Below are positions 3,470 to 55,300 of a stretch of 64,000 nucleotides of DNA, piece after piece. The number at the start of each line of letters is the position of its first letter. Within the stretch, counting starts at the first letter, position 1. The stretch is from Mya arenaria. Lineage: Eukaryota > Mollusca > Bivalvia > Myida > Myidae. The notes below the pieces were generated by a model. The model saw only the letters and a list, made by a program, of their open reading frames with translations, searched no databases and was not told where the DNA came from. Made by a program: the position numbers and the translations under genes. Location: NCBI RefSeq assembly GCF_026914265.1, contig NC_069125.1:71564046-71628045 (forward strand). The letters run 5' to 3'.

Positions 3470-3925
3470 ATATGAAACGCGATACTCGATAGTACGATGA
3501 TGAAAACGCGAAATCATGGAACTACGGTAGCGAAAACGCGACAGTACGATGATGAAAACGCGACAGAACGATAACGAAAATTCGATCATACGACAGAACG
3601 ATGTTGATCATGCCATATACTATCGTGTTTTCTCCGGCATCGTATTAAGTCACGTTTTCACCATCGTACGTAGTTTCGTGATTTCGCGTTTTCATCATCG
3701 TAGTATCGTATTGTCGCGTTTTCATCATCGTAGTGTCGTGTTTTTATCATCGTACTGTCGCGTTTTCATCAGCGTACCGTCGCATTTTCATTATCGTTCT
3801 GTCACGTTTTCATCATCGTACTATCTCGTTTTCATCATCGCACTGTCGCGTTTGTATCATCGTACTGTCGTGTTTTCATCATCGTACTGTTGTGTTATCA
3901 TCATCGTACTATCTGACATAGAAGC
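3470..3925. repeat. 22-bp-unit family, copy 1 (inverted halves)
   Basis: Degenerate 22-bp units (CGACAGTACGATGATGAAAACG) run forward at 3481-3600 and in reverse complement at 3640-3920, giving a foldback structure. The outer segment at 3925-3980 (CCTCCATGTGACAAAACG) recurs inverted at 7460-7500. Open frames through it are products of the repeat. Confidence 0.8.
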
Positions 3926-4305: not shown

Positions 4306-6610
4306 TTGATCAAGATGACATACAGACCACAGGCACATGGTGCATACAAAAACAGAAATGGGACAGAATATGGGAAAGGTCAGAAATGCTATGCATGTGG
4401 ATACGAGGGGCATATAAAGACAGATCCTAAGTGTCCAGCTAGAGGAAAGAAGTGCAGAAAATGTAAAAAAGAAAATCATTTTGAGTATTCACTGTATCAA
4501 GCCAGTACATGAAAGGAGACATACATGTTGACATAGGGGGGAATAACCATTCCCGTGATTATAGATTCGGGTCCAACCGTGAATATCATTGACAGAAACA
4601 TGTGGGAATACATGCAAGAAAGAAAAGTGAATTGTAACACTAAACTGACAAATAAAAAAGTGTATGCATATGGTAATGATAAACCTTTAACTGTAGCTGG
4701 GAGTTTCACTGCTGATGTAACAATGTCAAATTAAACTGTAAATGCTGAATTCATTGTGGTAGAAGAAAATGGACAGGCATTGTTAGGTAAAACGACTGCT
4801 GTAGAGCTAGGCATTTTACACATTGATATGCCGAGTATGGTGAACAACGTTATGACTGATGCTGAAAGGAAACAAGACCTGTGCAAGAAATTTCCAAAGT
4901 GTTTTGATGGTATTGGCAAGTTAAAAGATTATCAGCTTCACATTCCAGTTGATAATGACATTGAACCAGTTGTACAGCCATTGAGAAGAGTACCGTATGG
5001 GTTACGAGAGAAGCTTAAGAAGAAAATAGATGAGTAAGAAGAGTTGGACATTATTGAAAAAGTAAACACAACAAGTAAGTGGGTAAATCCAATTGTTGTC
5101 GTGCCAAAGAAAGATGATATAAGACTTTGTATTGATATGAGAAGAGCCAACGAAGCAGTTAAAAGGGAGAGATACCCTATTCCAACAACAGAAGAAGTTT
5201 TGCAAGATCTGAACAACTCGACTGTATTTTCAAAGCTAGACATCAAAATGGCCTACCATCAAATTGAATTGGACCAAGAATCTCGAGAAATTACTACATT
5301 CATGACTCATAAAGGAATGTATCGGTACAAACGACTTATGTTTGGGGTCAGCTGTGCTCCTGAGATGTACAATAAAGTGATTGCACAAACATTGAGTGGT
5401 CTAGAAGGTGTGGACAGTATATTCGACGACATTATTGTACATGGACGAAGTGATGATGAGCATAATGCAAGACTTGAAGCATTGTTAGAACGTCTTGAAA
5501 AGAAAGGACTTACGTTGAATCTGGAGAAATGCCAATTCAATTTGACTCATGTAGATTTTATGGGCATGGTTTTGTCAGACCATGGAGTAGGTCTTCACGA
5601 AAGTAAGGTGAAAGCTGTTCTTGAATTTAGAAAACCAAAAACTGTATCAGAAGTGAAGAGTTTCCTAGGTCTCGTCAATTTTAGTGGACGGTTTATTCCA
5701 AATCTCGCATCTATTGCTGAACCTTTGCGAAAGTTGACCAGAAAAGGACTTCCATTCACATGGGATGCTGAACAAGAGGAAAGTTTCAAAGAACTAAAAA
5801 AACAGTTGTCAAATGCGAAGAACCTTGGGTATTTCGACAAGAAAGATAAGACTCAAGTAATTTGTGATGCAGGGCCAGTCGGAATAGGTTGTGTTCTGGT
5901 GCAAGAAAATGGGCAAGGTGAATCCAGAGTGATTTTATATGTGAGCAGAACTTTGACGAGTATAGAACGGAAGTATTCGCAAACGGAGAAAGAAGCACTA
6001 TCCATTGTTTGGGCGTGTGAGAGACTACATATGTATTTGATCGGAATCGAATTTGAACTGCTGACAGATCACAAGCCGTTGCAGTTCATATTTTCTCCAA
6101 ATTCCAAACCATGTGCTAGAGTAGAAAGGTGGATGTTGCGATTACAACCATACACATATAAAGTCAGACATATTCCAGGGCATAAAAACATTGCAGATGC
6201 ACTATCGCGTCTAGTGCCTGAAACAAGCGTTCCAAAAGGAAAATGTGATTTTCTTAACACGGAGGAGTACGTTAAATTTGTAGCAACCGAGGCGACACCA
6301 ATTGCCATGTCAACAAAGACAATTGAACAAGAATCAAAGGATGATAAAGAACTAAAAGAGATTCTGTCAAACAAGAGCTATTTGCCGATAAAGCATGAAT
6401 TTAGGCTATTTAGTACTTCGAGGTACTAGAATCCTTGTACCCAAGACATTACGAGAGGACATTTTATCTTTGGGACACGAAGGTCATCCGGGCATTGTTT
6501 TAATGAAACAAAGATTAAGATCCAAAGTATGGTGGCCAGGGATAGATAAAGAGATAGAGAACTTTTGCAAATCATGTTATGGGTGCCAAGTAGCTAGTCA
6601 AGTTACTACG
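4306..6610 (+). pseudogene. Decayed Ty3/gypsy-type retrotransposon gag-pol
   Basis: The order is gag zinc knuckle, protease, reverse transcriptase, RNase H, integrase zinc-binding domain. A CCHC knuckle (CYACGYEGH) lies at 4390-4440, followed by a second knuckle that loses its last Cys. A DSG aspartic protease site is at about 4565. The RT (5044-5600) has VPKKDD, LDIKMAYHQI and an FDD active site (FDDIIVHG) in place of the usual YxDD. RNase H lies at about 5850-6230 (VICDAGPVGIG, DHKPL, HIPGHKN...DALSR). The integrase HHCC segment (HEGHPG...CKSCYGC) lies at 6470-6590. One frame carries at least four in-frame stops (about 4510, 4534, 4732, 5035) and a frameshift near 6394. The integrase core and 3' LTR are missing. 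It cannot be autonomous. Confidence 0.9.
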
Positions 6611-7449: not shown

Positions 7450-8125
7450 CCCCTGCATACGACATTTTGTCACATGGAGGGCAAATTCTTCTATGCGCAT
7501 GCGCACCGAAAGGCGATAGTACGATGACGAAAACACGACAGTACGATGATGAAAACGCGACAGTACGATGGTGAAAACGCGACAGTACGATGATGATAAC
7601 ACGACAGTACGATGATAAAAACGCGACAGTACGATGATGAAAACACGACAGTACGATGATGAAAACGCGACAGTATGATGTTAAAAACACGACAGTACGA
7701 TGATGAAAACGCGACAATACGAAGATGAAAACACGACAGTACGATGATGAAAACGCGACAGTACGATGATGAAAACGCGACAGTACGATGTTAAAAACAC
7801 GACAGTACGATGATGAAAACGCGACAATACGATGGTGAAAACACGACAGTACGATGATGAAAACACGACAATACGATGATGAAAACACGACAGTACGATG
7901 ATGAAAACGCGACAATACGATGATGAAAACACGACAGTACGATGATGAAAACACGATAGTATATCTCATTATCATCATCGTACTGTCGCATAATCGCATT
8001 TCCGTTATCTTACTGTCGCGTTTTCATCATGGTTCTGTCGCGTTTTTGTTATTGTAGTTTCGTGATTTCGCGTTTTCATCGTCGTACTATCAAGTATCGC
8101 GTTTCAGATCAACACATTCACATGC
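7450..8125. repeat. 22-bp-unit family, copy 2 (longest)
   Basis: About 20 copies of the 22-bp unit (GACAGTACGATGATGAAAACGC) occupy 7510-7965; it flips to the reverse complement at 7970-8105. The left end carries TTTTGTCACATGGAGGG and GCGCATGCGCA; the right end carries GATAC...CGCGTTTCA. Both ends match other copies in the window, so this looks like a complete foldback-type element. Confidence 0.85.
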
Positions 8126-8473: not shown

Positions 8474-23728
<15,255 letters not shown>

Positions 23729-26690: not shown

Positions 26691-26798
26691 ATATTTCGCG
26701 TTTTCGTTATCGTAGTATCGTGATTTCGCGTTTTCATTATCGTGGGATCGTAATGTCGTCTTTTCATAATCGTAATGTCGCATTATCATCATCGTACT

Positions 26799-26842
<44 letters not shown>

Positions 26843-26845
26843 TTT
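26690..26845. repeat. 22-bp-family fragment followed by (AAT)n
   Basis: Reverse-oriented units (GCGTTTTCATTATCGT) at 26697-26800 run directly into (AAT)n at 26801-26840. Confidence 0.65.
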
Positions 26846-27237
26846 ATTTAAAGAAGGTAACACATTAAGACATAGGCATCATATATTTAATTATAAACAA
26901 ACATAACACACGACTTATTTACAATGTGGCCTTCTGAAAGAACATACACACGCACACACACATAAATGCTTAGAATGAAAACGTAAGCATAAATTTATGT
27001 TATTTCAAAAGGGTACGTATTAAAATGTTATACGAAAACATAAAGAAACATGAATATAATACATTAATTATAAGATCAATGCCGAACAATACATCAATTT
27101 GTACCTAAAGGTTAACAAATCGTATCATTAAAATTTATTAACTGAGTAAGTAGGACAGTCACACATGTATTTAACACCTTAATCGAGATATATATAATGT
27201 AAAAACAATAGTCATGGAATTATGCGTACAATTCTTA

Positions 27238-27490
27238 CAACGTCGCGTTTTCATCAACATATACAGTACTGTCGGCGATTTCATCATCGTTCTGTCGCGT
27301 TATCATCATTGTATTGTCGCGATTTTCATCATATCGTACTGTCGCAGTATCATCATCGTACTGTCGTGTTTTCATCATCGCATGGTCGCGTTAGTTAGTG
27401 TCGTATTGTTCCGCATTCATCCTAGTACGATAGCCTTCCGATGCGCATGCGCAAAAAGATTTTACCCTCCATGTGATTTGAACGTTTACT
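27238..27490. repeat. 22-bp-unit family, copy with GCGCATGCGCA end
   Basis: Reverse-oriented units (TCATCATCGTACTGTCG) run to about 27425. The end GATGCGCATGCGCA...CCTCCATGTGA follows, as at 3930-3960 and 7460-7510. Confidence 0.7.
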
Positions 27491-34710: not shown

Positions 34711-34871
34711 AATGAGAAAAAGAAATATCCAAATTGAAAAAAGCGAAAAAATGAGGGTATTACAACCATTCATTTCTTTAAAATAAAAATAAATAAATCA
34801 CATAAGTTGAAATTTCCATTAAGAAGCTTTCTGAATACAGCCCTAGGTATGCTCCCTGCTACACATTTTGT

Positions 34872-35790
34872 TTGAATATATTTTCTTATATATGTGTTAA
34901 TGCAAGCATCAGTTCTAAATGCAAACTTATACTTTATGCTGATGACAGCGCTATCTTATTTCCTCATAAAGACCCTGACATTATTAGACAAATTCTTGGT
35001 CAAGAATTGCAAAACTGCAGCATGTGGTTAACTGATAACAAATTATCCCTTCATCTAGGCATTCTTTTTGGCTCCAAACGTAAACTTGGCAAAATAGGGG
35101 ATTTCAGCATTCAATGTAATGGCCATGAAATCATGTCTCAAGATTCAGACAAATAAATATCTTGGGTCAATTTTGGACTCTGATTTGTCAGTTTCATCTA
35201 CTGTGAACAATATTGTTAAGGAGGTTTACTCTAGAATCAAATTTTTATATAGACAAGGTGAATTTTTAAACAAATTTCTTAGGAAAACTCTTTGTAATGC
35301 ATTAGGTCAATGTCATCTTGACTATGCTTCATCATCTTGGTACTGTGGCCTTACCATGAAGTCTAAAAATAGACTCCAGCTGGCACAAAATAAAATTGTT
35401 CGTTTTATTAATAATTTTCATTGTAGAACCTCGCTTTCAGTGGCAAGTTTTTCTGATCTTGGATTTTTAAATGTCGAACAAAGATGTAGACAACTTAAGC
35501 TAAATCATGTACACAAAATATTTTATAACAAATGTCCAAGTTATATGAAGGATAATTTTGCCAAATGTAATGAGGTTCACTCATATGGCAGTTGATCCAA
35601 CTTTAAATTTTATGTCCCACATAATGGTGGTTTTACAGCAGCTTCTTTTTATTATAATGGTATAGGGGATTGGAACATGCTTCCAAATAACATCAAAGAC
35701 ACAGAATCAAAGTATGTTTTTTAAGAAATTAGTCAAAACTCACCTCTTAAAGGAGATGGAGAAGTTTGAAAAGTCTGTCTTTTTGTATTC
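34872..35790 (+). pseudogene. Fragment of a non-LTR retrotransposon reverse transcriptase
   Basis: An RT core segment with LILYADDSAIL (the YADD active site) and NCSMWLTDNKLSLH is followed after a frameshift near 35150 by KYLGSILDSDLS. The thumb and C-terminal part follows (LDYASSSWYCGL, LQLAQNKIVRFI). A stop lies at about 35594, and further decay precedes the typical LINE end (NNIKDTESKY). It lacks the 5' part and endonuclease. Confidence 0.85.
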
Positions 35791-35847: not shown

Positions 35848-37404
35848 AGCTCTACTGGCCAAAGGCCAGAAGAGCTCATGCGATGGTAATGTGTACGTAG
35901 TATGTGCATCCGTGTGTTCGTGCGTCCGTGCGTCTGTAATCAATTGCTTGTGAACACGATACAGTCTTCAGTTTTGATTGTATCTCAATGAAACTTGTAC
36001 AGTATTTAGATATCCATTAGAGCTCGGTTCCTTTCGAAAACCAGCCAGATCTGACCATGCATGCCTAGATTATGGGCCTTGAAAGTATTAAAAAATGCTA
36101 TTGTGTAAACACTAGCTTGTGAACACGATACAGATCTCAGTTTTGATTGTATCTCGATTAAACTTGTACAGTATTTAGATATCCATTAGAGCTCGGTTCC
36201 TTTTGAAAACCAGCCAGATCCGACCATGCATGCCTAGATTATGGGCCTTGAAAGTATTAAAAAATCAGTTTGTCTGTAAACAATTGCTTGTGAACATGAT
36301 ACAGTTTTCAGTTTTGATTGTATCTCGATGAAACTTGTACTGTATTTAGATATCCATTAGAACTTGGTTCCTTTTGAAAACCAGCCAGATCTGCCCATGC
36401 ATGCCTGGATTATGGGTCTTGAAAGTATAAAAAATGCTATTTTAAGCTAAGTCTATTTTTAGCCAAGTCTACATGAGCGAAGTCTATTTTTAGCCAAGTT
36501 TACATGAAAAGTCACAAGATTTGTTCAAATTATGCCCCTGAGGTCATTACTGCCCCCCCCCCCCCCCCCTCACGGAGATTGTCCCGTAAGGGACCAGTGC
36601 GGCAAATGCAAACGACCTCGGCGACGTTGGCGGAGGCCCAGGGAAGAGTTCTCTTTTCTTTGTAAAGGAAGGACTCCCCGCCCATTAAATTGGGAAATAT
36701 TAAAAACCTTTTTGTCTGATACCACCATGCAAATCCTTGCTATTTTGAACAAGGCTTTATTGAGTGGTCCACTACCATGGTTGTTCAAATTATGCCCCTT
36801 GGGTCAACACTGGCACTGCCCTGGGTGTCACAATTTTCCTAGAGACTTATTCAAGAAATATTTTCAAAATCTTCTTGTTTCAAACCACAAGGCCCATACC
36901 TTTGATATTTGTTGTGGAGCATCATATGATGCAATTGAAAACATTTGAAATAATGCCCCTTGGGCAAAAGCTGGCCCCACCCCTTTTGACTTACTTATTA
37001 ATTTTTAAAGCTACAGTAATGAAATTTTGACCATGTGAACAGTTTTGCAAACAAGCATTAATGTTAAACAAGCATTAATGTTGTCCTTGGATGTCCTTGA
37101 CTTTGACCGACTTTTTATTTTTAAAGCTACAGAAATGAAATTTTGACGATGAGTACAGTTTTGAAGGCAAATATATTTTACCCTCAGATTACCTTTACTT
37201 GGCACATATTAAAATAGTTCATGCAACTAATCTGCTTACAAGACTTCCTGTCCTCCGATGTTGAACGTGCAGCGTTTTCAGCTAACCCAAACACTAAAAG
37301 TGAACTATATATTTGTTGCCTATTACTCAAACGTACATGCTCTGGATTGAAAATGACCACAAGAGCCATGCCAGTAGAGCATAGGCCCTTTTGGGCCTCT
37401 TGTT
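35848..37404. mobile_element. Element beginning AGCTCTACTGGCC with internal 175-bp repeats
   Basis: It opens with a hairpin (AGCTCTACTGGCCAAAGGCC...AGAGCT). Three tandem units of about 175 bp follow (35940-36435), each with CTTGTGAACACGATACAG and GCCAGATCTGACCATGCATG. A C-run lies at 36551-36568. It ends near another hairpin (GGCCCTTTTGGGCC, 37384-37397). This resembles dispersed bivalve repeats I recall; the class is unresolved. Confidence 0.5.
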
Positions 37405-37715
37405 ATATAGTTACTTTGGTAATTTTTAAATATTCCTTAACTATTTGTATAATTTGTGGTATATTATATAATTATGTGATACTGATAGTAGTTTATTTGT
37501 GATGAATGTCATATATTAATTATGCCCCCCTTCGAAGAAGAGGTATACATATTGCTTTGCACAGGCATGTCGGTCGGTCGGTCGGTTGGTAGACTAAAGC
37601 TTGTCAGAGTGATAACTCTGACAATGCCTGCACCCATGGCCCTCAAACTTGACTTGGAGGTTGGGCCTGACCAGTAGCTGACACCTATTGTTTTTGGGGC
37701 TCATCAGGTCAAAGG

Positions 37716-37736
37716 TCAAGGTCACAGTGACCTTGA
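37716..37736. promoter_or_regulatory. Perfect ERE/ERRE palindrome 1
   Basis: TCAAGGTCA, spacer CAG, then TGACCTTGA: a full inverted repeat with two ERR/NR5A-type half-sites. Sequence match only; occupancy is unknown. Confidence 0.6.
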
Positions 37737-37861
37737 ATGGTAAAAGGTTGTCCGTGTGATAACTCAACAATGCCTGCACCTATGGCCCTCAAACTGGACT
37801 TGGAGGTTGGGCCTGACCAGTAGATGACCCCTAATGTTTTTGGGGGTCATCGGGCCAAAGG

Positions 37862-37882
37862 TCAAGGTCACAGTGACCTTGA
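37862..37882. promoter_or_regulatory. Perfect ERE/ERRE palindrome 2
   Basis: Same 21-bp palindrome as at 37716, one repeat unit (146 bp) later. Confidence 0.6.
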
Positions 37883-38138
37883 ATGGTAAAAGTTTGTCCG
37901 AGTAATAACTCGACAATGCCTGCACCCATGGCCATCAGACTTGACTCAGAGGTTGGGCCTGACCAGTAGATGGCCCCTATTGACTTTAGGGGTCATTGGG
38001 CCGAAGGTCAAGGTCACAGTGACTTTGAACGATAAAAGGTTTTCCGAGTGATAACTCAACAATGCCTGCACCCATGGCCCTCAAACTTGACTTGGAGGTT
38101 GGGCCTGACCAGTAGATGACCCCTATTGATTTTAGGGG

Positions 38139-38159
38139 TCAAGGTCACAGTGACCTTGA
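38139..38159. promoter_or_regulatory. Perfect ERE/ERRE palindrome 3
   Basis: Same palindrome again. Units at about 38011, 38262, 38418 and 38561 carry versions with one changed base in the 15-bp core. Confidence 0.6.
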
Positions 38160-39177
38160 AAGCAAACTTGACAATTCCTGGACCTATTGTCATCAAACTT
38201 GACATTAAGGTAGGGCCTGACCAGTAGATGACCCCTCATGACTTTGGGGTTCATCGGGTCAAGGTCACAGTAACCTTTAACACAAAAAAGTTTACCATTT
38301 TTCTCCCAGTGATATCTCAACAATGCCTGAACCTATGATCATCAAACTTGACATGGAAGTTGGGCCTGACCAGGAGATGACACTTATTGATTTTAGGAGT
38401 CATTGGGTCAAAGGTCAAGTTCACAGTGACCTTGAATGCGAAAATGTTTCCAGTGATAATTCAACAATGCCTGCACCCATGGCCCTCAAACTTAACTTGG
38501 TGTTGTGTCTGACCTGTAGATGACCCCTTATGATTTTAGGTGTCGTCGGGTCAAAGGTCAAGGTTACAGTGACCTTGAACGAAAAAACCTTGTCTGTGTG
38601 ATTTTTGTCAATGCCTGCACCCATGGCCCTCAAACTTGACATTTAGATTTTTGGTGGCCAGCTGATGACTCCTATGGATTTTGAGGTCATAGAGTAGGTC
38701 ATGGTCATTAACACACTCTATCATCAAGCTTTGAATGGTCATAATCTTAAAACAGCCTCAACGGCATCCAATGTCAGTGACAAATCAAGTGTCATTTCGG
38801 TCCATGCTTTTAATACCTTAGACATGGACCCCATTGGAAATAACCTTTACAGGTTATCCTGTGCAATGTCATTTATTATGTTAAACTTTATTTGGTAAAA
38901 CTTGATTTGCCTAATTTGGTAATAAATTAGGTAGCTTTATCATTAACACCAGAAGTAATACTTGTTTTAGTAGATCTAGTATTATGTATTTCATGTAAAA
39001 CTTTCTGTGATATAACTTATCTAAATATCATGCAAATACAATATGTGATATATCTTATATTGATGTAAAATGTACTGTTATTGACATAATGCACGAATAA
39101 AACTACTACTATACTTCTGTTACAGCAAGATAAAGATTTTTCATGTTGATGAAAGGCAACAACTTGAGAAATAAGGG

Positions 39178-39219
39178 ATGACGAGCCTGTATCAGACAGT
39201 GAAATCATGCATCATAAAG
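39178..39219 (+). CDS. TMEM263-like exon 1 (tentative start)
   Basis: ATG in AAGGGATGA context, 14 codons, donor AAAG|GTAATG, phase 0. It has no homology support of its own. Confidence 0.4.
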
Positions 39220-41196
39220 GTAATGCCATACTGTAACTTGCTAAAATAAATTGCTTTTATGTATGCCCCTTATTTGAAACAGTCAAATTTCCGCTTAAAG
39301 AGAGAAAATACATTTATAAGAGTGTTAGCCTGAATAACATACAGTATACTTTGGTTAGGGCTGATGTTTGTCAAGCACCACAATTGCACAATAATTCGCA
39401 AAATGAGATCACAAACCTATTACTATATTTTGGGTGATTGATCCACTTTTGTTGCAGTCTCCGCCGTCGGAGCAGGTGGAGGTGGTTACCAAGGAGACAG
39501 AGAATGATGTTCTTGACAATCCGGAACATGTGAAGGAGCATGACTCTATGGACTTTACCTCCAACAAGAAAACAGATGAACAATCAGGTACTCATTCAAT
39601 TCTTAGAACTATGAGTGAAGTTTCAGAAAAAAAGCTTAAACAGAACATGCAGTATTTCCACTGGGGTAGCCCCACAGTTGTTACTATTTTATTTTTCGAC
39701 ATGCTAGAAAGTGGTCCTACTATCCTAGAATTGTTTAAAAAAAAATACATAGGGGGTAAGATGACAGGGTCACTTTTCTGAGGTTTTGTATCAGGTTGAG
39801 TTTGGTGTGTAAATGTGTATCCTTATGTGGTCGGAATCGATGCATGTTAAAATACCGAACGAGAGGTGAAGCAGGTAGTCAGAAAGCTATTATAATCATA
39901 AATTTCCTTTATTATATGTCCCCATTGATCATTTCAATGTTTAATCACACACCTTTTGCTATAAACCAACAACACTGCACTTAAAATTAACTCAACATTT
40001 CCCTGAATCCACATTCAGGAAGGCCCCATAAATCACATTAGGAATTTAGTGCATTTTCTTCAATACATTCAGAATAATTTCTGAAAAAAATATGTTGCAA
40101 AAAGTAATTTTATATTGTAAAAAACATCAGTCTGTAAAAGGTTACTGGTAGCACTCAACACATGATACTACAGTTTGCTGATACAGGTTTTGCAAACAAC
40201 TGTAGCGTAATGCTGATTATTCAATATAGCGTGCTGTATTTTCACTGGCATATGATAAAATTTGCTCATCATTGTCATAATGTAATTTCGGTTTGTAAGC
40301 TGAATAAAATTATTGTAAAATGCAGTCATTTAATGCCAAAGTAGTTTATTACTGCTGTGATTAAGTTTCATGTTGTGTTGTGAAAATAAATTGTTTTCAT
40401 GTTTGAAGAGAATAACAACTTTGTAAAATACTTAATAATTAATAATTGCTTCATTACAGTGTGAGTAATAATTAATAATTGCTTCATTACAGTGTGAGTT
40501 TTTGAATTCTTGAAGGTTAACTTTGTCTTAATTAACAGCCTCAGTAAACAAGTACTATATTATGCAATAAATATTAAGTATAATGATGCTAAAATCTTGT
40601 ACAAACAATCTACAGTTAGATAGCAATTTATCTGAAAAAAAAAACAGATCTAAGATCTGCTGAGAGATTAGATGGGCAATTAATATATTTTTTAGTAAAG
40701 AGACATATTATACTTCCGGCAATATTATGTTTCTGATTGAAATGACTTTATTACATAAACTTCCAAGGTCACTTCCGGTTTGTTTTTTCATTCTTCCTTT
40801 ATTGTTTTTAGTAAGAATTATCAGCCTATTCCTAGAAGGAGGATATTCATGACCGGGCACTTTTGAAGCATTGAAAAGTGTAACTTATATCTTCTTAGAA
40901 TAATTCTGAGTTTAAATGATAACCATTATGTATAACATTTTTGTGTTTTAATACCAAAATAACTTTTGTTTATCTTCATAACAGAACAGAAGGCCCAGGG
41001 CGGTGTCATATGGCGTGTGTCGAGTGGTCTGGGCTCCGGGCTCTACAACTTCACAACGGGTGCTGTTGGCTATGGAGTGGGAGGAGTGAAGTGGGCGGCA
41101 GGCAAGAGTTATGACGTCGGCTCATCTGTAGTCACCCATGTGAAGAACCCGCCACTGCCAGAAATGCTTCGGAAAAAGAAAGACAAGAAAGAATAG
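39178..41196 (+). CDS. TMEM263-like small membrane protein (three exons)
   Basis: Exons: 39178-39219, 39458-39587 and 40985-41196, giving 127 residues. Junction phases fit: AAAG|GTAATG to TTGCAG|TCTCC (phase 0) and TCAG|GTACTC to AACAG|AACAG (phase 1). The N-terminal half is acidic and polar (EQVEVVTKETENDVL). The last exon has RVSSGLGSGLYNFTTGAVGY and GVGGVKWAAGKS, a Gly-rich hydrophobic segment, then a KKKDKKE tail. This matches TMEM263 (RVTGGIF...TKGAVG...GGVAW.GGKS, tail KKKDK). TMEM263 is a small conserved membrane protein whose molecular role is not well defined. Exon 1 (MTSLYQTVKSCIIK) is supported only by phase and splice sites; the true start could lie elsewhere. ERE-like repeats lie 1.0-1.5 kb upstream. 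Confidence 0.65.
39458..39587 (+). CDS. TMEM263-like exon 2 (acidic linker)
   Basis: Acceptor TTTTGTTGCAG, donor ATCAG|GTACTC, 130 nt. Encodes SPPSEQVEVVTKETEND, then a DNPEHVKEHDSMDF stretch. No membrane segment. Confidence 0.65.
40438..40503. repeat. 33-bp tandem duplication in the TMEM263-like intron
   Basis: TAATAATTAATAATTGCTTC followed by ATTACAGTGTGAG occurs twice head to tail. Confidence 0.8.
40985..41196 (+). CDS. TMEM263-like exon 3 (membrane region and basic tail)
   Basis: Acceptor CTTCATAACAG; 212 nt to a TAG stop. Holds the Gly-rich TTGAVGYGVGGVKWAAGKS segment and the KKKDKKE tail. Higher GC than its surroundings supports coding. Confidence 0.75.
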
Positions 41197-43309: not shown

Positions 43310-46300
43310 TGTATATCACGTTTTGACTTGAGCATAAGTCGACACTTCTGAACAAGGGTTTAGACTTCAGCTGGAGTCGACTGAGTCAGGGTTTAGACTT
43401 GAATTAGAGACTACTCTACTGAGCTAGGATTTTGACTTGAGCTAGAGCCTACACTTCTGAGCCAGAGTTTAGACTTGAGCTAGAGTCTACACTACTGAGC
43501 CAGGGTTTCGACTTGAGCTAGAGTCTACATTTCTGAGCCAGGGTTTATACTTGAGCTAGAATCTACACTTCTGAGCTAGAGTTTTGACTTGAGCTAGGGT
43601 CTACACTACTGAGCCAAGGTTTATACTTGAGCTAGGGTCTACACTACTGAGCCAGGGTTTATACTTGAGCTAGGGTCTACACTACTGAGCCAGGGTTTAT
43701 ACTTGAGCTAGGGTCTACACTACCGAGCCAGGGTTCATACTTGAGCAAGTGTCTGCACTACTGAGCCAGGGTTTATACTTGAGCTAGGGTCTACACTACC
43801 AAGCCAGGGTTCATACTTGAGCTAGAGTCTACACTACTGAGCCAGGGTTTTGACTTGAGCTAGGGTCTACACTACTGAGCCAGGGTTTATACTTGAGCTA
43901 GAGTCTACACTACTGAGCCAGGGTTTATACTTGAGCTAGAGTCTTCACTACTGAGCCAGGGTTTCGACTTGAGCTAGAGTCTACATTTCTGAGCCAGGTT
44001 ATTCCTTGAGCTAGAGTCTACACTACTGAGCCAGGGTTTCGACTTGAGCTAGAGTCTACATTTCTGACCCAGGGTTTATACTTGAGCTAGAGTCTACACT
44101 ACTAAGCCAGGGTTTATACTTGAGCTAGAGTCTACACTTCTGAGCCAGGGTTTATACTTGAGCTAGAATCTACACTTCTGAGCCAGAGTTTCGACTTGAG
44201 CTAGGGACTACACTTCTGAGCTAGGGTCTACTACTGAGCCAGGGTTTATACTTGAGCTAGGGTCTACACTACTGAGCCAGGGTTTATACTTGAGCTAGTG
44301 TCTACACTACTGAGCCAGGGTTTAGACTTTAGCTAGAGTCTACACTACTGAGCCAGGGTTTAGACTTTAGCTAGGGACTACACTACTGAGCCAGGGTTTA
44401 TACTTGAGCTAGGGACTACACTACTGAGCCAGGGTTTATACTTGAGCTAGGGTCTACACTACTGAGCCAGGGTTTATACTTGAGCTAGGGTCTACACTAC
44501 TGAGCCAGGGTTTATACTTGAGCTAGAGTCTACACTACTGCGCCAGGGTTTATACTTGAGCTAGTGTCTACACTACTGGGCCAGGGTTTATACTTGAGCT
44601 AGTGTCTACACTACTGAGCCAGGGTTTAGACTTGAGCTAGAGTCTACACTACTGAGCCAGGGTTTAGACTTGAGCTAGAGTCTACACTACTGAGCCAGGG
44701 TTTTGACTTGAGCTAGAGTCTACAGTACTAAGCCAGGGTTTATACTTGAGCTAGACTTTACACCACTGAGCCAGGGTTTATACTTGAGCTAGAGTCTACA
44801 CCACTGAGCCAGGGTTTATACTTGAGCTAGAGTCTACACTACTGAGCCAGGGGTTTGACTTGAGCTAGAGTTTACACCACTGAGCCAAGGTTTATACTAG
44901 AGCTAGAGTCTACACTACTGAGCCAGGGTTTATACTTGAGCTAGAGTCTACACTACTGAGCCAGGGTTTATACTTGAGCTAGAGTCTACACTACCGAGCC
45001 AGGGTTTATACTTGAGCTAGAGTCTACACTACCGAGCCAGGGTTTATACTTGAGCTAGAGTCTACACCACTGAGCCAGGGTTTATACTTGAGCTAGGGAC
45101 TACACTACTGAGCCAGGGTTTATACTTGAGCTAGGGACTACACTACTGAGCCAGGGTTTATACTTGAGCTAGGGTCTACACTACTGAGCCAGGGTTTATA
45201 CTTGAGCTAGGGTCTACACTACTGAGCCAGGGTTTATACTTGAGCTAGAGTCTACACTACTGCGCCAGGGTTTATACTTGAGCTAGTGTCTACACTACTG
45301 GGCCAGGGTTTATACTTGAGCTAGTGTCTACACTACTGAGCCAGGGTTTAGACTTGAGCTAGAGTCTACACTACTGAGCCAGGGTTTAGACTTGAGCTAG
45401 AGTCTACACTACTGAGCCAGGGTTTTGACTTGAGCTAGAGTCTACAGTACTAAGCCAGGGTTTATACTTGAGCTAGACTTTACACCACTGAGCCAGGGTT
45501 TATACTTGAGCTAGAGTCTACACCACTGAGCCAGGGTTTATACTTGAGCTAGAGTCTACACTACTGAGCCAGGGGTTTGACTTGAGCTAGAGTTTACACC
45601 ACTGAGCCAAGGTTTATACTAGAGCTAGAGTCTACACTACTGAGCCAGGGTTTATACTTGAGCTAGAGTCTACACTACTGAGCCAGGGTTTATACTTGAG
45701 CTAGAGTCTACACTACCGAGCCAGGGTTTATACTTGAGCTAGAGTCTACACTACCGAGCCAGGGTTTATACTTGAGCTAGAGTCTACACCACTGAGCCAG
45801 GGTTTATACTTGAGCTAGAGTCTACACTACTGAGCCAGGGGTTTGACTTGAGCTAGAGTTTACACCACTGAGCCAAGGTTTATACTTGAGCTAGAGTCTA
45901 CACTACTGAGCCAGGGTTTATACTTGAGCTAGAGTCTACACTACTGAGCCAGGGTTTATACTTGAGCTAGAGTCTAAACTACTGAGCCAGGGTTTTGACT
46001 TGAGCTAGGGTCTACAGTACTGAGCCAGGGTTTATACTTGAGCTAGGGTCTACACTACTGAGCCAGGGTTTATACTTGAGCTAGAGTCTACACTACTAAG
46101 CCAGGGTTTATACTTGAGCTAGAGTCTACACTACTGAGCCAGGGGTTTGACTTGAGCTAGAGTTTACACCACTGAGCCAAGGTTTATACTTGAGCTAGAG
46201 TCTACACTACTGAGCCAGGGTTTATACTTGAGCTAGAGTCTACACTACTGAGCCAGGGTTTATACTTGAGCTAGAGTCTAAACTACTGAGCCAGGGTTTT

Positions 46301-46645
46301 GACTTGAGCTAGGGTCTACAGTACTGAGCCAGGGTTTATACTTGAGCTAGGGCCTACACTACTGAGCCAGGGTTTATACTTGAGCTAGAGTCTACACTAC
46401 TAAGCCAGGGTTTATACTTGAGCTAGAGTCTACACTACTGAGCCAGGGTTTTGACTTGAGCTAGGGTCTACACTACTGAGCCAGGGTTTATACTTGAGCT
46501 AGAATCTACAGTACTGAGCCAGAGTTTTTTTTACTTGAGCTAGCCAGGGTTTATACTTGAGCTTTAGTCTACACTACTGATCCAGGGTATTTACTTGATC
46601 TAAAGTCTCAACAACCGGGCCAGCGTTTAAACTTGACCTACAGTC
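43310..46645. repeat. Large array of a 38-bp repeat with higher-order structure
   Basis: About 88 copies of a 38-bp unit (GAGCCAGGGTTTATACTTGA, then GCTAGAGTCTACACTACT). Units at the edges are degenerate; the middle is homogeneous. Variant units recur exactly 722 bp (19 units) apart, for example CGCCAGGG at 44541 and 45263, and GGGTTTGAC at 44851 and 45573. Further recurrences of GGGTTTGAC lie 7 units (45839) and 8 units (46143) on. Frames are closed by stops, so it is non-coding. Confidence 0.95.
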
Positions 46646-49379: not shown

Positions 49380-52300
49380 CTGAAGAAAAAACTGAGTGTG
49401 GGACACCGCATTTTACAACTGACAAACACTTGTGCTAACAGCGCAATATCTTCTTTGTTGCATTGATGTAAACACTGAGCAAACTATTGCTTTTAAGGGC
49501 TATCGATACCTATAATCATATCACGGAGCTTGCTCTAATTCATCATGGAAGTTGCTCAGAACGGAACGAGTTCAAAATGTGAACATTACCGCACTGTACA
49601 GCACTAAGTATTTTAGGTCCGTGTCGATTATGGGCCATAATGGGTAGAAACGTTGATTTATTTTTATATGCTCGCTATATATTCAGGCCATCATGGTCAT
49701 ACTTACAACATTCAAAAGAAATGTGCACCTTTATTTCGTTCATTTTCAGGTGCCTCATTTAAAAGACACCTTAATGTTTCGCTCGAAAAGCACACCGTGT
49801 TTGGAATTTACATACAACCCATGAAAAAGTTTTTGGTGTTAGAAGTACTGGTATTTTACCAATTATCTTTTTCAAAGAAACACAATGAAATAAAGTACCC
49901 CGATTATACTTGCTATATTTGTAAAACTACTAAAACATGTGTGCTTTTTATTTAAGCAATACGTACCCCGAACAAGCTGTCTTGGTGGTACTGGTCCTTC
50001 AAAATCGGCCGGAGAGCCCTGCAGACAGAAAAACTCATTGTCAAAGCACGGATTAACTTTTTTCAATTTGTATTGACTCTTTATCACTTTTAAGTATCCA
50101 GTCGACCAAAGAGATAACGAAGAGATTAATTTAATGACTGTAATCCTCTGCACCGGGAGCGGATTAATGGTTTTAATGAGACAAAGAAAAGATTATTTTC
50201 GTAACCAATCCTCTTAGAGTCAACATGTCGGAATCGTCTCTAGAGGCTTTCATTGCTAGTATTATGAATGGAATCCAGTGATTCCTTTGTTACCATTTCA
50301 TTTTTGGCGAAATACGCGATCTTACCTGTTATACAATGTTGTATATTTTTTATAATAGCATTCTCAATAGAGTAATATCATGACGGTTACCGTATATTAG
50401 ATAAAGTCGAGTCCCGATGGCCCGAACTCCAATTAACCGGCGAAATTACCTCCAGTCTCGTGAAATTCGAGCCAAGCGGAAAGGTTTGCCATCAGTATTA
50501 AGAAATCGGTCCGATACATTAAATTCAGTTCGAGCCAACAAGGAATTTGAGCCAAGCGATTTCGAGCCAACAGGACTCGACTTTAATTGAATGTTTTCAT
50601 GTTTGCATTTCTGAACCTAATGCAACGAAAGACAGACTTGCACTAAAACCTGAAAACATAATCATATACATGTACAATTAAGCAAAACGTCCGAACTTCT
50701 TACAGGTTGTTACAAACGTACGTATCCGTCTTGTGAATAACTATGCAAACATTATAATATGATCTAGAAAACTAGCAAGGATCGGATATCAAAGTTCATT
50801 TAAACCCTAGGTCTTTTGTCCATAAGCCTTCCATTGAAAAGCTAAGTAATATATTGTTTGGTGGACTTAATATGACAACTTTAACGTGCTACAGTATATA
50901 AAAGAAAGTGTAATAAATAGTTCCGTAATTCGTTTTTTCAGACTAGATTTGGCTCTGATACAAAAGTAAATTGATATGAAATCAGCTATTCAACATGTCT
51001 TTTAAAGGGGTAGATGATAAGTTCCCTGGTGTTATACGACTCCTTAACTATTTCATTGTTCAAATGCTATTTAACAGCTGATATCAACAAGGAGAAACAT
51101 TTATCTGATTACAGCTTTTATTTCATATAAAAACATTAAATTACAAAGAAGACTTTTTATGAGCTAAATCTGTCGGTTGTATCATCCTGGACTGCAGCCA
51201 TGTAGCTTAGTCACGTTAGGGGTTGCACTATTCACATATCAATTAATTCATGTGTTCTATTTACGTGTGCACATAACTATTATGGACTTGGATATTGTTT
51301 TAAAACTAGAAAAGATCGGTGCGTGTGCCTGGTCCTTACACATGTTAATGTACAACGTGAGAATCTACATCAAACACCACTCGGTGACTTCAAATAGACA
51401 ATAAAATACAACGCCTCTTCCCTATCAATCCAAATTATTCGCAGCGTTTTAGTTGACAGAAAAGTACCTTGAGACTGTTTTTATTGAGCTGAGAGATTGC
51501 TATAAATGTAATTTGTTTAATTGTCAAATACCCTGGTAAAAGCAAGTACACGAGTCTATCGGTAAACTGGTCAAATGGTTGCCTAGGGACTGGTGTGCAG
51601 AGGAAAAGTTGTATAACGTCTAAATAAGGGAACTGACGAAGTATTAATCGTCACAGCATCTTGTCAGGGCGGGGCATGGTGGTGGTTCTGCAAATCTAGT
51701 GCTATGCAACCCTACAATACACAGCACAACACACAGACCTTTTCTGTTCAAGAGGGGTTTGTTCGCGTCTTCCTAAGCTGAAACAAAAATGATATTATCC
51801 AACATTTCACCTCGTTGAAAAGTTCCAGTAAGCATCTCCAGTTGTAACACAGTGCATCTTTAAATTTAAATTGTAGTTACTGGCCTTTTTGTTCTTCTAC
51901 ATAAGTATTGTAATAAAAGTAACGACTGCTTATCGAATGGAAATAATGAGCACGGGAATGACGCCCTTATAAACTGCGTAAGACAGAAATCCGTGTTCAC
52001 TGCGTGAAAAACCCTTATTCAAAGCGTGAGACTGTGACCCCGATTCACTGCGTGAAACAGAAGCTGTAATTCACTGCGTGAGATTATAATCCTGATTCAC
52101 GGCGTAAAACTCTAATTCACTGCATGAGACTGTTACTTAATTAACCAAGTTGTTTTAACCATGTTTCACCGCGTGGTACAGTAACCCTGATTCACTGCAC
52201 GGAACTCTTACCCTGATTCACAAAGTGATTTTACCATAATTATTTGGTTAAGACAATAACACTGATTCACTGCGTGAGACAATAATTTTGATTCAATACG

Positions 52301-55300
52301 GTATGAGACTGTAACCCTGATTCACTGCGTGAGACCGTAACCCTAATTCATTGCATGAGACTATAACCCTGATTCACTGCGAGTGCCAGTAACCCTGATT
52401 CACTGCTCGAGACTGTAACCCAGATTCACTGCGTGAGACTGTAGCCCCGATTCACTGCGTAAGGCTGTATCCCAGATTCACTGCGCCAGACTGTAAGCAA
52501 TATTTACGGCGTGAGACTGTAACCCTTATTCATTAATTGAGACATTAACACTTATTCACTGCGTAAGACAGTAATCATTATTCACTGCTCGAGGCAGTAA
52601 CCCTGATTCCGTGCTCGAGACTGTAACCCTTATTCACTACGTGAGACTGTTGCCCTTATTTACTGCGTTAGACAGTAACCCCTATTCAACGCGTGAGACA
52701 ATAACTTATACAATGCCCGAGACTGTAACCCCAATTCACTTCGTGAGACTGTAGCACTTATTTACTGCATGATATTGTAGCCCTTATTTACTGCGTGAGA
52801 CAGTAACCTTTACTCACTGCGTGTGACAGTAACCCCGATTCACTGCGTGAGACTGTAAACCCAATTCACTGCTTGCGACTGTAACCCTAATTAACTGTGT
52901 GAAACTGTAACCCGGAATCACGGCGTGAGACTGTAACCCTAATTCACCGCATGAGACTGTAACCCGAAATCACGGCGTGAGACTGTTACCCTGATCCTCC
53001 GCGTGAGATTGTAACCCTTATTCAACGCATGAGACTGTAACCATAGTCACTTCTCGAGACTGTAACCCTGATTTACTGCGTGAGACTGTAACCCTAATTC
53101 ACTGCATGAGACAGTTACCCGGAATCATGGCGTGAGACTGTAACCCTGATCCTCCGCGTGAGATTTTAACCCTGATTCACCACCCTTAATCACTGCTCGA
53201 GACTATAACCCTGATTCACTGCGTGAGACTGCAACCCTGATTCACTGCGTGAGACTGTAACCCTGATCCTCCGCGTGAGATTGTAACCCTTAGTCACTGC
53301 GTGAGACTGTAACCCTGATCCTCCGCGTGAGATTGTAACCCTTAGTCACTGCGTGAGACTGTAACCCTGATCCTCCGCGTGAGATTGTAACCCTTATTCA
53401 CTGGTCGAGACTTTAATCCTGATCCACCGCGTGAGACTGTAACCCCGATTCACTGCGTGAGACAGTAACCCTGATCCACCGCGTGAGACTGTAACCCTGA
53501 TTCACTGCGTGAGACTGTAACCCCGATTCACTGCGTGAGACAGTAACCCTGATCCACCGCGTGAGACTGTAACCCTGATTCACTGCGTGAGACAGTAACC
53601 CTGATCCACCGCGTGAAACTGTAACCCTGATCCACCGCGTGAGACTGTAACCCCGATTCACTGCGTGAGACAGTAACCCTGATTCACCGGGTGAGACTGT
53701 ATCCCTGATTTACTGCGTGAGACTGTAACCCTGATTCACTGCGTGAGATTGTAACCCTCATTCATCGCTCGAGACTGTAACCCCAATTCACTGCGTGAGA
53801 CTGTAACCCCGATTCACTGCGTGAGATTGTAACCCTCATTCATCGCTCGAGACTGTAACCCCGATTCACTGCGTGAGACTGTAACCCCGATTCACGGCGC
53901 GAGACAGTAACCCTGATCCACCGCGTGAGACTGTAACCCTGATTCACTGCGTGATACTGTAACCCTGATTCAGTGCGTGATACAGTAACCCTGATTCACT
54001 GCGTGAGACTGTAACCCTGATTCACTGCGTGAGACTGTAACCCCGATTCACTACGCCAGACTGAAACCCCGATTCACGGCGTGAGACTGTAACCCCAATT
54101 CACTACGCCAGACTGTAACCCTGATTCACTGCGTCAGACAGTAACCCTTATTCACTATGTGAGAATGTAACCCCGATTCACTGCGTGAGACTGTAACCCT
54201 GATTCACTGCGTGAGACAGTTACCCTTATTCACTGTGTGAGACAGTTACCCTTTTTCACTGTGTGAGAATGTAACCCCAATTCAGTACGCCAGACTGTAA
54301 CCCCAATCACGGCGTGAGACAGCAACCCCGATTCACTACGCCAATTTGTAACCCCGATTCACGGCATGAGACTTTACCACTGATTTATTGTGTGGAACTG
54401 TGCCCGTGATTTTATTTCAACATCATTAATTCATTAATACATTAATAGATACATTTAATACCAGGCTAAATAAACTGGCACCGGATTTTCAAACTCAAAC
54501 ATTTTTTTTATAAAATCAAAAAAAAAATCTTATAATTCCTCACTAAAAATTATAATACCGAATATGTGAAAAAATATTGAAAAATATATTTGATTTTTAA
54601 AAAAAATGTTTGAGTTTGAAAATCCGGAGCCAGTGGCTAAATATTATTATTTGTACAGGAAAACATTTCAATTCAACACGACATCGACACGACCGCTGCA
54701 CTGATATAATTAATTGGTCGTTTTTAGAAGTAAAATCAATATGGATTGTGAATTTAATTCATTTAATGTCACTTGTGAGGTATTGAACGGATTTTTCGCT
54801 CACTCTGAAATCCAAACAATTTGTAATGCGTTAAATACAGTATACCATACATGTTGAAATTTAAATTTCATTCTCGATTTATTTTAATCCTACAGGACGT
54901 GTACAATTTGTTTTTACATGTTTAACAAGTTTGCCCTTTAAATTGCTGTTCTATTTTGTAATATCTTATTGCAATTTTTAAATTTGTTGCGTTTCAAATG
55001 CATTTATAAAGCAAACAAATAAAATATATATTGACATCAGCATTTATTATATCTCTCAAAATATCGTTATCTTGTTTTAAAGTATTCACCTCATTATAAA
55101 TTGGTTACAAAAGTCCCAAACTGCACTTACTCTTTATCCGTGTCTATTTTATCCTCCGACATGATCACTTATATATTCCCACTGTAAGACAATAGCTCGT
55201 TGATTAAATAACTCCCAAGCAGCGATTGAATTACATGTGGCTTATTCTACCCGCTTAAGCGACAACGCTGGAGACGAATGCTTAAACCTTGCGGTCTGTT

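Follow-up and report, generated by a model that had tools for sequence, protein, structure and literature searches.

Introduction

The Cg_HINE elements of Crassostrea gigas are described as non-autonomous Helentrons with satellite DNA-like arrays (PMC7492417). Their left flank, which comprises a subterminal inverted repeat (subTIR) and its inverted copy, is followed by a microsatellite, an array of 138-181-bp units and a right flank with a matching subTIR, and 7,151 dispersed short arrays fall into 13 clusters (PMC7492417). The pearl family (CvA, CvE and CvG), DTC84 and MgE of bivalves are modular elements with up to six core repeats of about 160 bp (PMC7492417; PMC5139131; PMC11136912). In DTC84, a palindrome close to the junction of the repeats is conserved, and the monomers of the BIV160/Cg170 satellites diverge except for short conserved segments comprising two motifs (PMC5139131). 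In mammals, transposable elements of the L2/MIR and ERV1 groups have given rise to binding sites of estrogen receptor (ER)-alpha, most of which are described as distal enhancers (PMC7145552). In the snail Marisa cornuarietis, the ER needs no ligand to bind GGTCAnnnTGACC, is constitutively active and does not respond to estradiol, and the ERR of the same species is stated, as data not shown, not to bind the estrogen response element (ERE) (PMC3778743).

We analyzed a 64,000-nt stretch of the Mya arenaria genome, hereafter the window, which contains a tandem array with receptor half-sites. The element to which we assign this array shares with Cg_HINE the layout and the thousands of dispersed short arrays; the two are likened by description, not by sequence, and the parts of PMC7492417 covered mention no nuclear-receptor motif. 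The modular, repeat-bearing design is likewise common to pearl, DTC84 and MgE by description only, and the palindrome of DTC84 may or may not match that of the window. As in BIV160/Cg170, again likened by description, the units diverge outside short conserved segments. With the mammalian ER-alpha elements, as far as PMC7145552 was covered, the window element has in common that mobile DNA spreads receptor motifs genome-wide; in mammals, however, binding was mapped by ChIP-seq, whereas the window element is known from sequence alone and carries its motif in a tandem array, several per copy, within a rolling-circle-type element. The array contains an exact match to the classical vitellogenin-type ERE, AGGTCAnnnTGACCT, as the preliminary description of this locus had claimed, but the palindrome sits inside a longer and better conserved run of direct half-sites.

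Elements of this type are known, as is mobile DNA that carries motifs. In open-licence full texts, TCAAAGGTCAAGGTCA was absent, AAAGGTCAAGGTCA and ATGCCCCC plus TCAAGGTCA occurred only in unrelated papers, and the papers with AGGTCACAGTGACC were by title none on mollusc repeats. A search for ERE, transposable element, mollusc and repeat returned nothing in the open-licence literature, and the matches listed, judged by titles and the starts of abstracts, gave no account of the window repeat. No rolling-circle array that conserves tandem receptor half-sites on such a scale is described in the titles and abstract starts of the open-licence matches listed.

Results

The tandem array and its half-sites

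TRF reported a tandem array at 37596-38141 (period 146, 89% match) and 38306-38642 (period 144). Combined with a comparison of the units, this gives an array of eight head-to-tail units at 37596-38725 on the plus strand, the units being counted from CAATGCCTG at 37622, 37768, 37914, 38060, 38172, 38321, 38465 and 38609. The units are 144-149 bp long, except for the fourth (112 bp) and the eighth and last, which is partial. A k-mer search of the window did not find the repeat again outside the array.

An inverted repeat with a 3-bp spacer (IR3) is present in seven of the eight units. The 15-bp palindrome AGGTCACAGTGACCT is exact at 37719, 37865 and 38142 and has a single change at 38011, 38262, 38418 and 38561, numbers and positions that agree with the preliminary description. 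When up to two mismatches were allowed, the window contained nine matches to AGGTCACAGTGACCT against a shuffle mean of 2.27, and none of 100 shuffles reached nine. All three exact palindromes extend to the 21-bp form TCAAGGTCACAGTGACCTTGA, located on the plus strand at 37716-37736 in unit 1, 37862-37882 in unit 2 and 38139-38159 in unit 4; at these three sites, the inverted AGGTCA repeat with a 3-bp spacer that defines an ERE is exact. On the same strand, the right half-site is changed once in unit 3 (TGACTT, 38008-38028) and unit 5 (TAACCT, 38259-38279), and the left half-site once in unit 6 (AGTTCA, 38415-38435) and unit 7 (AGGTTA, 38558-38578). The partial unit 8 (from 38609) retains AGGTCATGGTCA but has lost the inverted half and thus the palindrome.

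The palindrome is the right-hand part of a longer motif block, exemplified by GGTCAAAGGTCAAGGTCACAGTGACCTTGA at 37707-37736 on the plus strand, in which a third GGTCA lies upstream of two tandem AGGTCA half-sites followed by an inverted one. The unit consensus around the palindrome is GGTCAAAGGTCAAGGTCACAGTGACCTTGAA, which reads as the half-sites GGTCA, a, AGGTCA, AGGTCA, cag, TGACCT. Units 4 and 5 lack bases upstream of the palindrome, inside the block. The ERR/NR5A-type half-site TCAAGGTCA is exact at 37716, 37862, 38008, 38139 and 38259 on the plus strand.

The element carrying the array

The array is preceded by a left flank at 37521-37569 on the plus strand, TATGCCCCCC-TTCGAAGAAGA-GG(TATA), in which a 5′ subTIR is followed by a partly decayed complementary copy, and a (TCGG)n microsatellite at 37570-37589 on the same strand closes the flank. 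Over 105 aligned columns, the segment 37521-37625 shares 76% identity with the left flank of another copy, L024, which comes from a stretch of this genome chosen by position alone and looks complete. L024 opens at 1897 with TATGCCCC and its inverted copy GGGGTATA, followed by a short and imperfect microsatellite (GTCGATCCGTCCGTCGG) and a central array of 11 usable units of ~146 bp. Its 3′ subTIR, GGGGGCATA at about 3600, is complementary to the 5′ one, and its 3′ end was placed by eye near ...CTCTTGTT at about 3630. The features of HINEs that were matched are the pair of 5′ subTIR and complementary inverted copy, the latter partly decayed in the window, the left-flank microsatellite, the central units of 140-180 bp and, in L024 only, the 3′ subTIR. 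A palindrome near the 3′ end is clear in an element of another host, L002 (GTACCTTTCAGGTAC), and there is no clear one in L024. The anatomy of L024 looks like that of a non-autonomous Helentron of the HINE/pearl type, and because its layout is that published for Cg_HINE, we assign the window array to a HINE-like rolling-circle element. The right flank of L024 detected no counterpart beside the window array in a blastn search; the window copy is truncated or decayed on its 3′ side and is without a recognizable 3′ end.

Just upstream of the element, a hairpin at 37386-37406, GGCCCTTTTGGGCC, is followed by TCTTGTT and resembles the 3′ end of L024; it may be the end of another element. Pfam did not support a known enzyme as the host gene of L024, the only match being a sub-threshold one to apolipoprotein.

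Genome-wide dispersal

The preliminary description had proposed that the repeat, if dispersed, could seed nuclear-receptor sites across the genome, and a genome-wide count bears out the dispersal. Exact matches, which give lower bounds for the repeats, were counted in the 18 contigs of a 1.216-Gb genome. The 21-bp form TCAAGGTCA-NNN-TGACCTTGA occurs at 9,711 places at least, compared with none for the reversed-pattern control and a chance expectation of about 0.02 for the 18 fixed bases of TCAAGGTCANNNTGACCTTGA. A 23-mer anchor from another part of the unit was exact at 5,391 places or more (2,760 + 2,631), again with no match for its control. The 50 first-listed 21-bp sites form 25 clusters in 9.65 Mb, and many of the gaps inside clusters measure 138-156 bp or near-multiples of the unit; extrapolated from these 25 clusters, the genome total would be some 4,900 loci. 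All six stretches fetched at listed clusters are tandem arrays of one repeat superfamily. By eye, three of these (L050, L052 and L054) belong to the window's subfamily and three (L051, L053 and L055) to another, whose units are GATTTTGAGATCAGTAGGTCAAAGGTCAAGGTCACCGTGACCTTGAGGTGAAGAAACGG-like.

In 25 hand-placed 10-kb stretches at round coordinates, an array of the window family was found in one, and the IR3 matches of these 250 kb (six exact, nine with at most one mismatch) all lie inside that single array. The idea of seeding holds in that a dispersed element spreads the consensus IR3 very widely, but the palindrome is not the chief conserved part, as detailed below.

Three arrays with identical site spacing lie about 7 kb apart at C1:5948968-5963639 (5.949, 5.956 and 5.963 Mb), probably a recent segmental duplication that carries the element. 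At L038:5258-5860, diverged stretches contain TCAAGGTCA at 5275, 5736 and 5853 and match the window family by nhmmer (E = 0.002) with no TRF call; they may be a more ancient relative that shares the motif.

Conservation of the direct block and the palindrome

We counted steps per site on a tree of 19 units from the window and L024. In these two arrays, AAAGGTCAAGGTCA accumulated 0.50 steps per site and the remaining sites 1.62 (p = 0.001), and 2 of 144 windows were as low. The 15-bp palindrome changed at about the unit average (1.33 versus 1.53 steps per site, p = 0.35), which does not support the view that it is the preserved part of the repeat.

A fresh test set consisted of 12 units from the listed part of C1, which were chosen by the 23-mer anchor elsewhere in the unit and taken as 105 bp each, starting at the last three anchor bases. 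The cells that differ amount to 1.2% in AAAGGTCAAGGTCA, 0.9% in the left arm, 6.5% in the right arm and 11.1% in the flanks, and the 15-bp IR3 is exact in nine of the 12 units. Site permutation of the changes, a test that is not fully independent because the units are related, gave p = 0.00025 for the block, whose low level was matched by 2 of 80 contiguous windows, and p = 0.30 for the right arm. The whole IR3 was somewhat below average, with p = 0.011 by changes, a value helped by its left half, and p = 0.057 when distinct alleles were scored; 11 of 79 windows were equally low.

The two arms were then compared over all 5,391 anchored units, which measures a left-right contrast and is no absolute test against neutral sequence. 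The left arm TCAAGGTCA is intact 26-34 bases after the anchor in 3,323 units (61.6%), and the right arm TGACCTTGA, 38-46 bases after it, in 1,759 (32.6%), about half as often. Ninth roots of the intact fractions correspond to about 5% change per site on the left and 12% on the right; thus, the right arm, unlike the left one, resembles the flanks. Part of the right-arm loss is due to the variant TGACCTTTA, a change common to 5 of the 12 units. In 42 units of eight arrays, a set uninformative on absolute conservation since L050-L055 were picked through the palindrome, the right arm carried 42 changes versus 22 in the left, a difference that is not significant in a per-unit sign test (p = 0.31). 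Immediately preceding the left arm, AAAGG was 94-100% constant in 48 distinct strings versus 44-98% in the 20 columns before it, a figure of little weight because it was copied by hand and is conditioned on an intact left arm.

On these limited samples, the direct block AAAGGTCAAGGTCA resists change more than the palindrome. The ERR/NR5A half-sites, which had been mentioned as an alternative to the ERE, fit these data better than the ERE does, and the half-site reading is more likely than the ERE reading.

Related repeats in other presumed hosts

A scan of prokaryotic assemblies with the 19-mer GGTCAAAGGTCAAGGTCAC returned seven loci, L001-L007, after a first pattern had returned none. Tandem arrays are present in L002 (PIVJ01000170.1) and L003 (PIVJ01000152.1), both in one Bacteroidetes MAG, and in L007 (NZ_CAHJWD020000427.1), in the assembly of a Bathymodiolus symbiont; L006 is one match at a contig end. 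L001, L004 and L005 are single matches, which were taken as chance and rejected as copies of the repeat. The three array loci are probably eukaryotic host contamination of bacterial assemblies, the host of L007 presumably being the Bathymodiolus mussel, and among 12 scanned genomes of the L007 symbiont genus only the known one matched. Searches for copies in viral contigs gave zero and then four loci; these have a G+C content of 55-72%, lack motif arrays and were taken as chance.

The motif spacing in these arrays is 138-166 bp, with one gap of 299. L002 and L007 units were aligned with the window unit, and significant alignment extended only over about 19-26 bp, which is the block; L003 was compared by eye. 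In L002 and L003, the next half-site is usually direct after the same CAG spacer (AGGTCA-CAG-AGGTCA), and in L007 it is also direct, 5 bp on. The left ends of L002 and L003 are of the same kind as those described above (TATGTCCACCCC...GGGGGGACATA), and the right end of L002 consists of GGGGTGGACAT plus the palindrome of its 3′ end. The block recurs, exact or with few changes, in successive units of L002, L003 and L007, but the ERE palindrome does not; as the loci were found via part of the block, agreement there is partly built in. When boundary units were left out, the excess conservation of the block in L002/L003 became smaller, at 3.5% versus 9.3% (p = 0.023, 26 of 129 windows as low), and with the fourth half-site included p was 0.0015 (4 of 120 windows as low), which favors the block as the conserved part of this family only moderately.

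At L039:7093-7695 on the minus strand, an array of 180-bp units contains AAGGTCAAGGTCA-like motifs at 7571 and 7391; its resemblance to the L007 unit did not reach significance.

Discussion

The window array is best explained as the central repeat portion of a single copy of an abundant rolling-circle element that is non-autonomous and of the HINE/pearl type. Each unit offers GGTCA-a-AGGTCA-AGGTCA and, in the window family, another half-site 3 bp on that is inverted, and the inversion of this last half-site produces the shape of a consensus ERE. As the element spread and its arrays expanded, thousands of perfect extended palindromes were placed in the genome, with several IR3 sites per array; the counts and the fetched stretches show this. 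We consider it about an even chance that AAAGGTCAAGGTCA is kept constant because a host DNA-binding protein reads it, with the ERE palindrome as a by-product. The reading would take place while source copies are active, and the reader would most simply be a nuclear receptor whose monomers recognize TCAAGGTCA or AAAGGTCA. We take TCAAGGTCA to be an NR5A/FTZ-F1 or ERR site and AAAGGTCA an NR4A site. Binding of nuclear receptors to the array sites is plausible from their sequence, and a mollusc ER could bind the by-product palindrome without ligand. Since the snail ER is ligand-free and constitutive, vertebrate-style estrogen responsiveness is unlikely. Several observations weigh against a host reader: elements with similar ends but AGGTCA-free units (L029 and perhaps L021, see below), the snail ERR that is stated not to bind the ERE, the reduced excess of the block in L002/L003, the non-significant sign test on the two arms, and the somewhat below-average change of the whole palindrome in the 12-unit set.

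The constancy of the block might instead stem from few recent source copies, homogenization and small samples, with no protein reading the motif; this is possible, if somewhat unlikely. Bivalve HINE/pearl arrays carry many unrelated monomers (PMC7492417, in the parts covered), and AGGTCA is found in the consensus of only 4 of the 19 TRF arrays with a period of 90-260 in 314 kb, three of which belong to the window family, two being parts of the window array itself. That the whole palindrome was no more constant than the unit in the 19-unit set also agrees with such a neutral history. However, homogenization and recent spread act on all parts of a unit, whereas the block is exceptional in a set chosen without it, and the left arm is intact twice as often as the right over 5,391 units.

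The notion of a host reader can be carried further. A bivalve rolling-circle lineage, perhaps with those of other animals, might depend on a host nuclear receptor, the half-sites being kept by selection across hosts and monomers; a germline receptor (NR5A/FTZ-F1, ERR, NR4A or a ligand-free mollusc ER) would open or transcribe the source copies, and the genome would gain thousands of high-affinity sites. We regard this extended form as unlikely. If it were true, the sites would act as a receptor sink or as raw material for new enhancers.

The block could also bind a protein encoded by the transposon, a Rep/helicase or an accessory factor, and be kept for transposition. Constancy inside the element and cross-host alignment over the block alone would fit any binder linked to the element. 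The known cis-requirements of Helentrons are the ends, not the central repeats. In the same genome, moreover, a complete-looking element at L029:8020-8510 has similar ends (TATGCCCCC...GGGGGCAT), with similar subterminal repeats, and 161-bp units free of AGGTCA. A 157-bp-unit array at L021:5535-6720 likewise lacks AGGTCA, and ~300 bp further on lie AGGTCAATGTCACATTCGGGGGCATTTG and CTCTTGTT, which resemble an element end. L029, and perhaps also L021, indicates that the block is not needed for the spread of such elements, and we consider the involvement of a transposon protein quite improbable.

A structural role, in which the palindrome would be retained because it forms a hairpin or cruciform in the DNA and thereby favors slippage during replication or growth of the array, is very improbable. 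The fold of one unit is far better than those of its shuffles (z = -6.0, none of 200 as good) and pairs both the palindrome and the GATGACCCC...GGGGTCATC arms, but another unit gives only z = -1.85 (9 of 200 as good). In addition, paired changes that restore the stem number 2 against 57 other changed pairs in the 42 units, the direct last half-site of L002/L003 forms no such hairpin, and the arms are intact unequally often.

Finally, that the host has co-opted the arrays as estrogen-regulated enhancers, including for the gene next to the window array, is extremely unlikely: perfect consensus sites do lie near its coding start and mammalian ER sites derived from transposable elements act mainly as distal enhancers (PMC7145552, as far as covered), but the mollusc ER tested in the parts of PMC3778743 covered does not respond to estradiol, the palindrome is not preferentially preserved, and a regulatory function for every one of thousands of arrays is unlikely.

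With host reading of the block as the favored explanation, two consequences follow if the reader is a receptor: an animal rolling-circle element would be tied to a hormone-receptor family, and the genome would be a natural test of whether thousands of strong sites can be absorbed. The exact extended EREs, at least 9,711 in number, belong to one kind of mobile repeat in all six fetched stretches, as do all IR3 of the 250-kb sample, and unless the repeat is masked, it could swamp computational searches for estrogen-responsive genes in genomes of this kind.

The neighboring gene and other repeats in the window

The same-strand gene downstream of the array is a TMEM263 homologue (Pfam PF15475, UPF0444; E = 1.2e-08, 35.5 bits with a cut-off of 27.6, at about 40987-41145). 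Its putative first coding exon (39126-39219, ATG at 39178) and second coding exon (39458-39587), both on the plus strand, were read by eye and are not a predicted gene model, and the putative last coding exon at 40985-41196 on the same strand is delimited by the Pfam match, the ORF end and an acceptor. The array does lie upstream of this gene as previously described, with the palindromes about 0.6-1.5 kb before the coding start. An acceptor-like TTCTGTTACAG precedes the putative first coding exon; the promoter is therefore probably further upstream, and the array may be inside a 5′ intron of the TMEM263-like gene. Estrogen regulation of this gene is unsupported, and nothing examined singles out the window copy among the thousands.

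Several other repeats were observed in the window. A second dispersed tandem family adjoins the array at 35932-36439 and recurs at L039:5829-6168 on the minus strand; its 169-bp units are 87-93% identical between the two places and lack AGGTCA. Broken ORFs at 34806-35595 contain LYADDSA, which we take to be the reverse-transcriptase motif of a decayed LINE. A 22-bp unit (CGACAGTACGATGATGAAAACA or the complement) forms several separate arrays, at 3705-3910, 7514-7961 and 26693-27392, and represents a dispersed minisatellite, and long minisatellites with units of 38 bp (3.3 kb) and 26 bp (2.4 kb) occupy 43326-46628 and 52010-54385, respectively.
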